From Pontibacter indicus (lineage in GTDB: Bacteria > Bacteroidota > Bacteroidia > Cytophagales > Hymenobacteraceae): a stretch of DNA of 64,000 bases. Location: assembly GCF_900156345.1 (NCBI RefSeq), contig NZ_FTPP01000003.1, positions 248,001 to 312,000 on the forward strand. The letters are read 5' to 3'. Below the pieces are notes generated by a model. The model ran no database searches. It was not told the DNA's origin and saw only the letters and a list, made by a program, of their open reading frames with translations. The position numbers and the translations under genes were made by a program. Position 1 is the stretch's first letter. Each line of letters opens with the position of its first letter. Positions 3,853 to 13,244 of the stretch are shown piece by piece.

Positions 3853-4710
3853 ATGATAAGGCTTCTTCTAATTTTCATTTTCCTGGCTCCATTCTCTGCT
3901 TTTTCCTGCGATGCAGACCCGCCTCCTGTTGCCCTGGAATTCCTGAAAGCGAAACACGTTTTTTTTGGTCAGGCCACTTCCAAGGTATACGCTAAAGACT
4001 CCCTTACCTACACAGTCTCGTTTACTGTAGAGCAACACTTTAAAGAAGGGGGCTCCCTACCAGAAACACTTGCTTTCACGTTGCCTGCAGAAGGAGAAAT
4101 TACAGGCAGTTATAGCTCCTGCGATTTTGGCGTTTTGCTGGGCCGAAAGTGGCTGATATACGCCTACACATATAATGGCATTTTGACTTTCAGCTATTAC
4201 GGCTCTAACTCTAAACCAACAGAGTCTCTTGATGCTATACCCAAGCAGGAGCTTGAAATCTTAAATTCAGGTCATGAGATTGATTACAGGAATATCATTT
4301 TTGACGAATCGCTACTCAAGAGCCCAACTGCAGTAACGTATGTAGGGCCTTCCCCAAAAATTCAACTACATAGCTTACTTACCCATATCGATAACACAAA
4401 ATACAGACAAACCAGCCGCTTAACTTTTGAGAATTTTATAGCAGGGATCGATTCGTCGGGGAATATTATGGAATTGTTCATACCTGATCGGCGAGCAAAA
4501 CATGTGTTTCAAGCAGTGTATGATGTGCAAGCTACAGTGTGGACTCCCCTGAAAGAGCTGAGCTCTTTACAATTCGACCTGTTGCAGGCACTCAAAGCCT
4601 CGGGCCAATGGAAGCCTGCCCGCTTTATGGGCAAGTCTGTGAATTCACAGGTGTTTTTTCAAGTCTACATCGACGAGCAGGGCAAGGTCACCACTTCAGC
4701 TTTTTATTAG
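3853..4710 (+). CDS. Secreted protein, NTR/TIMP-like N-terminus and TonB-C-like tail (tentative)
   Basis: A 285-residue exported protein: signal peptide MIRLLLIFIFLAPFSAFS followed at once by a cysteine (C19) and a stretch (LKAKHVFFGQATSKVY ... VEQHFKEG) resembling NTR/TIMP-like modules, with a second cysteine in SYSSCDFG. The last 50 residues (QWKPARFMGKSVNSQVFFQV, DEQGKV) resemble the TonB C-terminal fold that appears in two genes at 22.5-25.4 kb. Both domain calls rest on motif resemblance only. No operon partner is evident. Function unknown. Confidence 0.6.
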   Translation: MIRLLLIFIFLAPFSAFSCDADPPPVALEFLKAKHVFFGQATSKVYAKDSLTYTVSFTVEQHFKEGGSLPETLAFTLPAEGEITGSYSSCDFGVLLGRKWLIYAYTYNGILTFSYYGSNSKPTESLDAIPKQELEILNSGHEIDYRNIIFDESLLKSPTAVTYVGPSPKIQLHSLLTHIDNTKYRQTSRLTFENFIAGIDSSGNIMELFIPDRRAKHVFQAVYDVQATVWTPLKELSSLQFDLLQALKASGQWKPARFMGKSVNSQVFFQVYIDEQGKVTTSAFY

Positions 4711-4836
4711 ATTTGTTTACTTACTGTGCTATAGCTCAATTCCCTGATTGCAGCTAGGTATTAAACCTTTTCTGATTTCTCCCCTCAAATCCCTAAATTT
4801 GAAAATCTAACCTAATCTAATCGAATACACCCTGTC

Positions 4837-7800
4837 ATGAAGAAGCATACCTATCTGAGTATGTTCCTGGCGGCGGCGCTGGCCTTACCCATGGGCACAG
4901 CCACGGCGCAGGACAAAAAAGACAACAAATGGAACGTGGAGGAAGCCCGCGGACCGCAAAAAGAAGTTACCGTAACAACCGACGAAGGCACTTGGATGAG
5001 CGTGGACGTGAGTCCGGACGGCAAGGAGATTGTCTTCGACATGCTCGGCGACATCTACATCATGCCCATCACCGGCGGCAAAGCAAAACTCCTTCGCAGC
5101 GGCCGTTCCTACGAGGTGCAGCCCCGTTTCAGCCCCGATGGCAAGTTTATCTCCTTCACTTCTGATGCAGGCGGCGGCGATAACATCTGGGTGATGAAGC
5201 GCGACGGTTCTGATGCCAAGCAAATCACCAAAGAGAACTTCCGCCTCCTGAACAATGCCGTTTGGACGCCTGACGGGGAGTACCTGATCGCGCGCAAGCA
5301 CTTCACGGCTTCCCGTTCGCTGGGTGCCGGTGAGATGTGGATGTACCACAAATCGGGCGGTAACGGTGTGCAGCTGACCAAGCGCAAAAACGACCAGCAG
5401 GATGCCGGTGAGCCCGTGGTTTCGCCTGACGGCAGGTATGTGTACTACTCTGAAGACATGAGTGGCGGCACAACCTTTGAGTACAACAAAGACCCGAACG
5501 GCCAGATCTACGTGATCCGCCGCGTGGACCGCAACACAGGAGAGATCGAGAACGTGGTGACCGGCAACGGCGGTGCGGTTCGTCCGGTGCTTTCCCGCGA
5601 TGGCAAACAGCTGGCTTTCGTGCGCCGCGTGCGTACCAAGTCGGTCCTTTTCATACACGACCTCAAAACAGGTGAGCAGTGGCCCATCTACGACCAGCTG
5701 AGCAAAGACCAGCAGGAAGCCTGGGCGATCTTCGGCGTATACCCTTACTTCTCCTGGACGCCTGACAACAAGAGCATCGTGTTCTGGGCAAACGGCAAGA
5801 TCAACAAGATCGATGTCGCTTCTCAGAAAGTAACCAACATCCCGTTTGAGGCGACTGCTACGCACCACATTGCCGAAGCCGTGCGCCACGATTTCAGTAA
5901 GTCAGGTATGGCTCCGGACCAGTTCGCGGCCAAGGCCATTCGCCATGCCGTGACTTCGCCTGACGGCAAGCTGCTCGTGTTCAACGCGGCCGGCCACATC
6001 TATAAAAAAGAACTGCCAAATGGCAAGCCGGAGCGCGTGACCAACGGCAAGGACTTCGAGTTCTACCCAACTTTCTCGCCAGACGGCAAGACACTGGTAT
6101 TCTCTACCTGGGATGATGAAAACCTGGGCGCGCTGGTGAAAGTGGACATCCGCAAGAAAAATGCGAAGCCAACCAAAATCACTTCTGAAAAAGGCTTCTA
6201 TACCAATGCTTCTTTCTCGCCGAACGGCAAGCTGATTGTGTACAGCAAAGACGGTGGCAACAACCACATGGGTTATGCTTTTGGCAACGAGCGCGGTATT
6301 TATTACATGACGGCAGAGGGCAAGAACCCGACGTTAGTACAAAAGAGCGGCTTCAACCCACTCTTTAATGCGAGCTCTGACCGTATTTTCTTCACGGGAG
6401 GCGCTGGTGGCAAGTATGTCTTCAAGAGCGTGGACCTGAACGGCAAAGAAGAGCGCACGCACTATACCTCTACCTACACCGACCAGTTCTACCCTAGCCC
6501 GGACAACAAGTGGCTGGCTTTCGTAGAGCTGTTCAACGGCTACGTGGTGCCGTTCTCAGCGAACGGTACTGGCATGGAACTGAGCGCTGAGACCAAAGCG
6601 ATGCCAGTCGCCCGCTTCACCAAAGATGCCGGCACGAGCGTGCACTGGTCAGGCAATAGCAAGAAAGTGAATTGGGTGCTAGGCGACGAGTATTTCTCCA
6701 ACGACCTGAAAGATCGTTTTGCTTTCCTGGAAGGCGCTCCTGAGAAGTTGCCTGCCATCGACACCACAGGTATAAAAATTGGCCTGGAACTAAAAACCGA
6801 CAAGCCACAAGGCAAAGTAGCCTTCACCAACGCCCGCATCATCACGATGAAAGGCGATGAAGTAATCGAAGGCGGTACGATTGTAGTAGACGGCAACCGC
6901 ATTGTGTCAGTAGGCAAAGGCATCGCCGTGCCGAAAGACGCCAAAGTGATTGATGCCAGCGGCAAGACCATTATGCCGGGTCTGGTAGACGTACACGCGC
7001 ACCTGGGTACCTTCCGCAACGGCATGAGCCCGAAACAGCAATGGTCTTACCTGGCCAACCTGGCTTACGGTGTCACCACCACGCACGACCCTTCTTCTAC
7101 CACCGAGATGGTGTTCAGCCAATCGGAGGCTGTGAAGGCCGGCCACATGGTGGGCCCGCGCATTTACTCAACCGGTACGATCCTGTACGGTGCTGACGGC
7201 AACTTCAAAGCTGTGATCAACAGCCTCGACGATGCCCGTTCGCACCTGCGCCGCATTCAGGCTGCCGGGGGTTTCTCGGTGAAGAGCTACAACCAGCCGC
7301 GCCGTGATCAGCGCCAGCAGGTGATCCAGGCAGCCCGCGAACTGGACATGACCGTGGTACCGGAAGGCGGCTCGACCTTCTTCCATAACATGAGCATGAT
7401 CCTCGACGGTCACTCCGGCATTGAGCACAACATCCCAATCGCACCGCTTTACAAAGACGTGATCGAGGTATGGAAAGCTTCGAACACCGGCTATACCCCT
7501 ACTCTGGTGGTGAACTATGGCGCGACCAGCGGCGAGTACTACTGGTACCAGAACACCAAGGTATGGGAGAAGGAAAGACTCCTGAAATTCACGCCACGCT
7601 CTGTCATTGACGGCCGCTCGCGCTTTGTGATGCAGGTGCCGGACGAGGAGTACCGCAACGGTTACTTCAAAACGTCGGAAGCCTGCAAGGCCCTGACCGA
7701 CGCCGGCGTGAAAGTGAACCTCGGTGCGCACGGACAGCTGCAAGGCCTGGGCGCCCACTGGGAACTGTGGATGCTGCAGCAAGGTGGTATGAGTAACCTG

Positions 7801-10430: not shown

Positions 10431-10883
10431 TTAGTCCCTTACCTGGTCGAGTATATCGCTCAGGTGCTGCGCCTCTGCTTCGGTCAGGCTCTTGAATGTG
10501 TCCTCTTCCAGCTGCTTCATCAGCGGATCGAGGCTATCGAGCAGTTCTATTCCTTTCTTCGTGATGGCGATCTCCACCTTGCGCCTGTTCTGCTCGCAAA
10601 GTTCGCGGGTCACCAACCCTTTCAAACGCAGTTTTTCCACCAGACGGGTGGCATTGCTCATGCGGTTGAGCATACGTTCCTGAATGGTGAATAAGTTGAG
10701 GGGCTTCCCATGCTGTCCTCTCAGGATGCGCAGCACGTTGAACTGTTGCGAAGAGATGTCGTATGGCTTGAGCAGCCCATCGACGCGCGCCATCATCCAC
10801 TCGCCCGTAAACATTAGGTTCAGCGAGGCCTTCTGGAAGGGGCTTCTGAACTTGGGCATCTTTAATTCATCTTCTAGCTTCAT
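10431..10883 (-). CDS. MarR family transcriptional regulator
   Basis: A 150-residue winged-helix repressor-type protein. The order is MarR-like: N-terminal dimer helix, recognition region (SSQQFNVLRILRGQHG, LFTIQERMLNRMSNATRLVE), wing with basic residues (CEQNRRKVEIAITKKG) and C-terminal dimer helix (LTEAEAQHLSDILDQVR). It is divergent from the aminotransferase-GRAS gene, and a perfect 12-bp palindrome (10927-10938) lies between them, so control of itself and of that gene is the natural inference. No inducer can be predicted. Confidence 0.93.
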   Translation of the reverse strand: MKLEDELKMPKFRSPFQKASLNLMFTGEWMMARVDGLLKPYDISSQQFNVLRILRGQHGKPLNLFTIQERMLNRMSNATRLVEKLRLKGLVTRELCEQNRRKVEIAITKKGIELLDSLDPLMKQLEEDTFKSLTEAEAQHLSDILDQVRD

Positions 10884-10926: not shown

Positions 10927-10938
10927 TTGTATATACAA
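10927..10938. promoter_or_regulatory. Palindrome TTGTATATACAA, candidate MarR operator
   Basis: A perfect 12-bp dyad in the 210-bp gap between the divergent marR-type gene (start 10883) and the aminotransferase-GRAS gene (start 11094). It lies 44 bp upstream of the regulator's start, where MarR proteins often bind. No second copy was seen in the gap. Confidence 0.5.
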
Positions 10939-11093
10939 CATTTTCAAGTATTTAGTTTCTCGCTTTTAGCCCGCATTTTTACCGACCTTCATTTTGTTAT
11001 TATTTTTTTATGCTTAGACCACATTCCAAATATAATATGCATTTATAAACTGCTATATTGCAATTAATACCAATATACCGCTTTGCTATACCT

Positions 11094-13244
11094 ATGGAAA
11101 ACGAACGCCCTCCTTACCAAGCTGCCACGAACGAGAACCTGTTTGGGACCTCCCCACAGGTGCTTGCCGCCATGCAGGAGGCCCTGAGCAGCGTGCACGG
11201 TTACCCAACACCCGACGCAGCCGACCTGCGACACGCGTTGGCCAGGAAACTGGGGGTGCAGGCAAACGAAATTGTAGTGGGAAGCGGCTCGGCCGAACTG
11301 ATCTCGTTGTTGGTGCGTCGCTTTTGCGGGCACGACAAGGGCAGCGAGGTGCTGACTTTCACCCCCTCCTACCCGCTGTACTGCCACGAGGCCCAAGCGT
11401 TGCGAATTCCCTGCACCGAAATTCCGCTGACGAGCGGCTACCGGATTGACCTGGAGGCTCTGCAGCGCGAACTGCGGCCATCCACGCGACTTTGCTTTAT
11501 CTGCAATCCCAATAACCCGACCGGCACCTACCTGACAAGCGCTGAACTAGAGCAAGTACTCGACAGTCTGCCGGCGCACGTTACCGTGGTGGTTGACGAG
11601 GCGTATATCGAATATGTCACCGCTCCAGATTGTGCGGATGCTGTGTCCCTGCTGGCACGCTACTCGAACCTGGTTGTGCTGCGCACTTTCTCCAAAGCCT
11701 ACGGACTAGCCTCTGTTCGCATCGGGTACATGATCGCGCAGCGCCACTTGATTGAGCAGTTACTGGAGGTGAAACAACCTTACAATGTCAACCAGTTGGC
11801 CCAGGTAGCTGCCCTGGCTGCGCTGGAAGACGACCACTTTCTGCAGACGACGCTGCAGGCTACACAGGACGGGAAGACGAAGTTGGAACAGGCTTTGCAT
11901 AAAATAGGCGTCCAGTACTGGCCTTCACAAGGCAATTTTCTGCTGCTGGATGCCGGTGGCTACAGTGCCGATGACGTACACACATACCTGCTTGCCAATA
12001 ACATTCTGGTGCGCCGCGCCGACCAACATACCCTGCGCCTAACCATAGGCCCAGACGAACATCAGCTATACCTGTTACAAATGCTACAAGAATTACTGCA
12101 CCCCTCCCGCGTTTACGCCTCACAACCGCTACTGGCACAAGTGCTCGATTTGGGCTACGAGGTGCAGGAGCAGCCGGAAGAGGCGACAGTCAGCGCACAC
12201 GACTTACTGATCAAGGCAACCGAGCAAACGGATGCAGAAGGCCGCATTGCGCAGGCTTTTGCAAAGGCGCTGATCTTGCGCTGTCAGCAGGACAAGCAGG
12301 CCGCCTCTGGCAATTTGTATGCCTCCAACTACGGGGAAATGGACATGATCGCAGCCTTCAATGTGCTGGTGACCGCCACGCCATTGGTTAGCTTCGGCCA
12401 TCGCTTCGCCAACCATTCCATCCTGTCTGCCATTGCCGGGAAGCCCTCGGTATACCTGCTCGACCTGGGTATAGGCAGCGGTTTGCAGTGGTTTCATTTC
12501 ATGGATTTGCTGGCTGCTTTGCCAGGCGATCGCCCTAAGCTCCACCTCACCGGCATCGACATTCCGGATAGCAGCAACCCCGACCCGGCTTACAAGCTTC
12601 GGGCAACGGGCGAGCGCCTGGCAGCGCATGCCGGGCGACTGGGCCTGGATTTCAGCTATACCTACGTGGCCACCCGCCTCGAAGACTTCAACCTGCAGTC
12701 GCTCGAGATTGACGCTTCCCATACCTTGATCGTGAATGCGGCACTCACCCTGCACCACCTGGCCGACGAGCTAGTGGCTATACCTGACCAGCGCGACCGG
12801 GTGCTGCAACAGATTAGGGCGCTGCGTCCGCAATTGCTCACCCTGACCGAACCAGACTCGGAGCACAACCGCCTCGAATTTCTGCCCCGCCTGCGCGAGT
12901 CGCTGCGCCACTACTATACCGTGTTTGATGTGCTCGACACGCTGCTACCAGCCGACATGCCCGAGCGACGCGTAATAGAGCAGGAGTTTTTTGGGAGGGA
13001 GATCCTCAATGTAGTGGCCTTCGAAGGGATTGACCGGGTGGAGCGCCACGAACGGCAGGACGCCTGGCAGCACCGGCTCATACGCAATGGCTTTAAGCCC
13101 GCTCCGAGCCAGGTGACTGCCGCCCAGATCCAGACTGAACTAGACCTGCATCCACAATTCAGCCTCGCCTCACATACGGCAGGCTATACCTTGCACTGGA
13201 AAGGCACCAACATCATAGCCGCTACGGCATGGCAGGTAAGTTGA
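11094..13244 (+). CDS. HisC-like aminotransferase fused to a GRAS domain
   Basis: A 716-residue two-domain protein. Residues 1-335 are a class I/II PLP aminotransferase of histidinol-phosphate type: NPNNPTG (138-144), VVVDEAYIEY, and FSKAYGLASVRIGY with the PLP lysine K201. Residues about 370-716 carry the GRAS motif series known from plant SCARECROW/DELLA proteins and rare bacterial homologues: LHRI-like helices, the VHIID equivalent VYLLDLGIGSGLQW (453-466), LHLTGIDIP, ATGERLAAHAGRLGL, the FLPRLRESLRHYY block, FFGREILNVVAFEG then RVERHE (about 647), and the SAW-like WKGTNIIAATAW (702-713). Bacterial GRAS domains are viewed as Rossmann methyltransferase relatives, so the protein may aminate and methylate one small molecule (inference). 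The ATG at 11094 is chosen over a TTG 12 codons earlier. Confidence 0.88.
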   Translation: MENERPPYQAATNENLFGTSPQVLAAMQEALSSVHGYPTPDAADLRHALARKLGVQANEIVVGSGSAELISLLVRRFCGHDKGSEVLTFTPSYPLYCHEAQALRIPCTEIPLTSGYRIDLEALQRELRPSTRLCFICNPNNPTGTYLTSAELEQVLDSLPAHVTVVVDEAYIEYVTAPDCADAVSLLARYSNLVVLRTFSKAYGLASVRIGYMIAQRHLIEQLLEVKQPYNVNQLAQVAALAALEDDHFLQTTLQATQDGKTKLEQALHKIGVQYWPSQGNFLLLDAGGYSADDVHTYLLANNILVRRADQHTLRLTIGPDEHQLYLLQMLQELLHPSRVYASQPLLAQVLDLGYEVQEQPEEATVSAHDLLIKATEQTDAEGRIAQAFAKALILRCQQDKQAASGNLYASNYGEMDMIAAFNVLVTATPLVSFGHRFANHSILSAIAGKPSVYLLDLGIGSGLQWFHFMDLLAALPGDRPKLHLTGIDIPDSSNPDPAYKLRATGERLAAHAGRLGLDFSYTYVATRLEDFNLQSLEIDASHTLIVNAALTLHHLADELVAIPDQRDRVLQQIRALRPQLLTLTEPDSEHNRLEFLPRLRESLRHYYTVFDVLDTLLPADMPERRVIEQEFFGREILNVVAFEGIDRVERHERQDAWQHRLIRNGFKPAPSQVTAAQIQTELDLHPQFSLASHTAGYTLHWKGTNIIAATAWQVS

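Follow-up and report, generated by a model that had tools for sequence, protein, structure and literature searches.

What might a single protein do that carries both a complete HisC-type aminotransferase and a GRAS domain? The question is raised by one gene in a 64,000-nucleotide window of the Pontibacter indicus genome (contig NZ_FTPP01000003.1, positions 248,001 to 312,000), the whole stretch analyzed here, whose own numbering is used throughout. The reading frame is free of stop codons across 11094–13244 of the forward strand and encodes 716 amino acids. The most likely start codon is the ATG at 11094, with an in-frame TTG lying upstream at 11058. The aminotransferase half occupies 11124–12092 (+; residues 11–333). 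It matches Pfam Aminotran_1_2 over residues 11–324 with 207 bits and NCBIfam hisC over residues 11–333 with 305.6 bits, above the equivalog cut-off of 276.55. The GRAS half follows at 12204–13235 (+; residues 371–714) and matches Pfam GRAS (PF03514) with 277.9 bits against a curated cut-off of 27, covering profile positions 27–374 of 374. An earlier note, made from the letters of the window, had described such a fusion and named its GRAS landmarks. The profile matches bear out both halves, and all of the landmarks are present in the translated frame: VYLLDLGIGSGLQW as the VHIID-type stretch, ATGERLAAHAG, FLPRLRE, the plant-type motif RVERHE (13035–13052, +; residues 648–653) and a SAW-like end.

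The protein is probably, though by no means securely, a bifunctional small-molecule enzyme that joins a pyridoxal phosphate (PLP)-dependent transaminase to an S-adenosylmethionine (SAM)-dependent methyltransferase. The HisC-type half would serve as the transaminase and the GRAS half would methylate the substrate or product of that transaminase, so that one metabolite would be handled by both active sites of a single chain. What the analysis shows is that both domains are complete, that their PLP and SAM motifs are intact, that each half is under purifying selection and that the two recur together as fused or neighboring genes; catalysis, the shared metabolite and channeling are inferred.

This pairing is found outside Pontibacter. 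In a metagenome-assembled genome (MAG) of the Rhodothermales, a HisC-like gene (hisC 290.2 bits) is followed by a separate GRAS gene, the two overlapping by ATGA. Fifteen neighborhoods of divergent standalone GRAS genes (9–19 kb, 161 open reading frames (ORFs)) contained four HisC-like genes, all of which adjoin the GRAS gene on the same strand. None of the 116 non-adjacent ORFs was HisC-like (Fisher p 0.0015, in a test that ignores relatedness and concerns four genes already seen beforehand). Three of these four neighbors were scanned, giving 140–169 bits with Aminotran_1_2 and 231–245 bits with hisC, below the hisC cut-off. In one genome (G433), a single base separates the GRAS stop codon from the ATG of the HisC-like gene. 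With later loci included, a HisC-like gene lies downstream on the same strand, within a 1.5 kb flank, in 10 of 30 divergent GRAS loci. HisC-linked GRAS genes thus account for 33 of the 53 loci seen, counting the 22 fused genes and the one from Rhodothermales. In Pontibacter and Rhodothermales the HisC part precedes GRAS, and in the other linked loci it follows. The existence of unfused gene pairs strengthens the metabolic role that the earlier note had proposed, namely amine formation with SAM-dependent methylation. The role so proposed is partly supported, and catalysis remains a prediction.

Several observations weigh against a bifunctional enzyme, the limits of the Fisher test among them. 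The other 20 of the 30 divergent loci lack a HisC-like gene within about 1.5 kb of GRAS, so GRAS can work without such a partner. The ten linked divergent loci represent few lineages. On the GRAS tree, HisC linkage needs at least three changes. On the HisC tree, the four partners of divergent GRAS form one clade (100/99) separate from the fused HisC, and we therefore count two or three origins of the linkage instead of ten. The trees do not show that the fused HisC and its Rhodothermales counterpart arose from one source: a single clade of the two is weakly rejected, on long branches (approximately unbiased test, p 0.032). No pathway genes were seen beside the Pontibacter fusion in the named loci, where the gene stands alone. 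It has also been reported that plant GRAS of the same fold bound neither SAM nor S-adenosylhomocysteine (SAH) in isothermal titration calorimetry (PMC5873383).

If the two sites do share a metabolite, the likeliest chemistry, proposed tentatively and by analogy, would have a 2-oxo acid methylated on carbon and then transaminated to give a beta-methyl amino acid. One report describes how MppJ and then TyrB turn phenylpyruvate into beta-methylphenylalanine (PMC11496134). The parallel is functional: MppJ and TyrB are separate proteins, whereas the Pontibacter halves form a single chain. The 2-oxo acid C-methyltransferases MppJ, SgvM and MarI are not GRAS proteins, unlike the Pontibacter half, and no membership of their group is claimed for it. 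The second-best solved relative of the fused HisC, a putative phenylalanine aminotransferase, would suit an aromatic 2-oxo acid. The main rival holds that the transaminase makes an aromatic or imidazole-type amine or amino acid, of which the GRAS half methylates the nitrogen in the manner of EgtD. This is rather unlikely, since EgtD is one among many methyltransferases at similar Z and its sequence identity to the GRAS half is about 14%.

In a less probable alternative, the GRAS half would have no catalytic activity and would regulate the aminotransferase by binding a ligand or by interaction, much as the GRAS domains of plants have lost methyltransferase activity. The failure of plant GRAS to bind SAM or SAH, cited above, speaks for it. 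The SAM site of the GRAS half was compared with those of its relatives in an alignment of 34 rows: 12 from Pontibacter and Botryobacter, one from Rhodothermales, 17 divergent bacterial and four plant (DELLA1, RGA, SCL3 and SCL7). SAM motif I reads DLGIGSG (12462–12482, +; residues 457–463). It is followed by Asp489 after strand 2 (12558–12560, +), which we take to be the ribose-binding acid, and by LHH after strand 4 (12750–12758, +; residues 553–555), the strand itself spanning residues 544–550 in the structure model. The stretch EPDSEHN (12849–12869, +; residues 586–592) ends strand 5, modeled at residues 581–588. The G-x-G-x-G of motif I, the acidic residue (D/E) behind strand 2 and the LHH that follows strand 4 are each present in 30/30 bacterial rows, with the leading D of motif I replaced by N in four divergent ones. 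In the four plant rows the middle glycine, the acid and LHH are each absent (0/4), and the SCARECROW stretches DLDIMQGLQW and TGLG likewise lack the motif I glycine and the acid. The fusion has the DLGIGSG and TGID expected of a class I SAM methyltransferase, and the loss of SAM motifs that marks a plant-type GRAS regulator is not seen in it. The SAM-binding residues, for which the earlier note had proposed a check, thus appear to be kept, and their presence in all 30 bacterial rows speaks against the non-catalytic alternative. An analogy to metal-binding HH motifs (CysG(N-16) mutants, MppJ) was considered and not used, as no paper on it was found.

The remainder of the GRAS half resembles that of plants, which also favors a non-catalytic role. 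Pontibacter, Rhodothermales and plant rows all have QW after motif I, which is found in 0/17 divergent rows. RxERH is found in the Pontibacter and Rhodothermales rows, in 3/4 plant rows and in 0/17 divergent rows. At the C-terminal end, Pontibacter and Rhodothermales have AW or AF (VW in one row) and the plant rows AW. As these features are common to plants and the SAM motifs are common to bacteria, the fusion has, judged by its sequence, a plant-type GRAS body with a bacterial-type SAM site. Plant GRAS proteins such as SHORT-ROOT, SCARECROW, SCL3, SCL7 and the DELLA protein RGA also differ from the fusion in having no aminotransferase part. Zhang, Iyer and Aravind (2012) are said to have predicted bacterial GRAS proteins to be small-molecule methylases. 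Those predicted methylases share the Rossmann methyltransferase fold and the SAM motifs with the fusion, to which Pontibacter adds a complete HisC-type aminotransferase. The 2012 work on bacterial GRAS is cited in PMC4609302. The GRAS methylase family is already known, and its coupling to HisC-like enzymes was not found described in the literature within reach. No published link between GRAS and an aminotransferase was found among the papers listed from the open-access literature searched, a weak absence given that the 2012 study lies outside it.

On the aminotransferase side, it could be argued that the fused HisC is merely a second histidine-pathway enzyme and its fusion to GRAS incidental, as it exceeds the NCBI equivalog cut-off for hisC. 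The PLP lysine, NPNNPTG and DEAY are invariant in seven aligned fusions, as expected of a HisC-type PLP aminotransferase. The lysine is Lys201 in TFSKAYGL (11694–11696, +), presumably the one that binds PLP, and solved HisC chains have their SK lysine at the aligned position. The fused HisC is indeed a second copy, because the same genome holds another hisC that scores higher (369 bits against 308 for the fused copy). With the PRK03321 profile the ranking is reversed, the fused type reaching 280 bits and the other hisC 201. The nearest solved relatives are 3ffh from Listeria (182 bits) and 4r2n (Rv3772; 176 bits), the putative phenylalanine aminotransferase. Both are alike in fold and motifs to the fused half and, unlike it, have no GRAS fusion. 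These scores, the identity of the second-best relative and the recurrence of HisC–GRAS pairing elsewhere make a histidine-pathway role very improbable.

The fusion is confined in its distribution. The P. indicus genome (4.57 Mb, 8 contigs) has one GRAS match. GRAS was found in 22/204 genomes of the family, all 22 in the genus Pontibacter as called here, in 19/37 same-genus genomes in a separate count and in 4/395 genomes of a phylum sample, the last two including P. indicus itself. None of 14 control genomes had a match, which agrees with the rarity suggested by the earlier note. A scan of named genomes gave 19 GRAS loci (17 Pontibacter, one Botryobacter and the Rhodothermales MAG). In the order of that MAG, GRAS was present in 1/114 genomes, namely the MAG, and in the order of G433 in 1/123, namely G433. 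Among viral contigs, 77 stretches fitted a pattern and none was a relative. The 22 fused ORFs are unbroken, measure 713–727 amino acids from the first ATG and each start with NENLFG, which belongs to the HisC half. Neither circumstance that the earlier note had named as refuting the fusion, a missing GRAS match or an assembly join, applies. Both halves are under purifying selection, with dN/dS (NG86, window gene against 18 relatives) of 0.06–0.31 for the HisC half and 0.06–0.22 for the GRAS half, computable in 15 of the 18 pairs for each and with many dS values near saturation.

In a tree of the 34 rows, a split supported at 100/99 sets Pontibacter, Rhodothermales and plants apart from the 17 divergent bacterial rows, and plants with Pontibacter receive 93/85. 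In a tree of 41 rows these three still group (100/99), with no branching order resolved among them, and one divergent clade is weakly placed on their side (71/67). Long branches are flagged in both trees. Since algae are absent from the sample, its plants number four rows and its bacteria come almost all from one phylum, Pontibacter is nearest to plants only within this sample. The plant-like motifs and this grouping could suggest that two genes were joined in assembly, or that Pontibacter recently took up a plant GRAS gene. The join is rejected and the transfer can practically be dismissed: the fusion is unbroken in 22 genomes and recurs in the named-genome loci, the plant (100/100) and Pontibacter (100/99) rows of the 34-row tree form separate groups, and the SAM motifs missing from plant rows are present in the fusion.

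According to published work, plants acquired GRAS from soil bacteria, and a bacterial subgroup falls in a clade with them (PMC9942845, PMC12448838). In the review PMC12448838, Fang et al. 2017 are credited with the GRAS phylogeny, under a listed title on DNA-3-methyladenine glycosylase, which is probably a citation slip. Plant GRAS domains are described in PMC5873383 as containing a large cavity. It is conceivable, if rather doubtful, that plant GRAS regulators derive from the methyltransferase half of a transaminase–methyltransferase module. The two bacterial lineages grouping with plants here, the Pontibacter fusion and the Rhodothermales gene pair, each have a HisC-like aminotransferase as partner. 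The ancestral pocket would then have accommodated a 2-oxo or amino compound on which such an enzyme acts, and a related molecule may still fit the large cavity of plant GRAS. This bacterial relative, which combines a plant-type body with a SAM site that seems intact and with an enzyme as fixed partner, is a tractable protein in which to seek the ancestral ligand and reaction, and turns the general methylase prediction for GRAS into a specific, testable one.

Upstream of the fusion lies a divergent MarR-family regulator gene (10431–10883, −; Pfam MarR 31.8 bits), as in 12 of the 18 named Pontibacter and Botryobacter loci, and a convergent NUDIX gene is found on the other side in 16 of the 18. 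A regulatory link between the MarR gene and the fusion is a guess. A perfect palindrome, TTGTATATACAA, stands at 10927–10938 between the two and is exact in 11/12 aligned intergenic regions. It is missing from the six named loci without the MarR gene and from one locus that has it (L052). As it stands nearer marR, control of the fusion through it can only be guessed at. The genome contains three such sites. The second (L102 and L104 being the two further loci) lies between genes labeled by eye as Dps-like and OxyR-like, and the third, likewise labeled, upstream of a second MarR-like gene beside an aldo/keto reductase-like gene. The palindrome was set aside as a clue to function, as these neighbors named no pathway.

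Other GRAS loci vary in their surroundings. Two Skermanella plasmids (NZ_CP086114.1 and NZ_CP086109.1; L058 and L059) carry alphaproteobacterial GRAS genes annotated as GRAS family protein, with no HisC-like gene within about 10 kb. Three standalone GRAS genes without a HisC-like neighbor (L132, L138 and L139) are flanked by FadB-like and phosphotriesterase-like genes, of which the L138 copies were scanned. In another (L037), two small ORFs separate GRAS from the FadB-like gene. A PLP decarboxylase-like gene lies two genes from GRAS in L134 and L140 (L134 copy, Pyridoxal_deC 247.7 bits). One genome (G1106) holds two GRAS genes (L147 and L153), one HisC-linked and the other without a HisC-like neighbor within 1.5 kb. 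In L129 (G929) and L130 (G946), a LOG-family gene lies directly upstream of the GRAS–HisC pair on the same strand; the L130 copy, at 4137–4886, was scanned and matches Pfam Lysine_decarbox.
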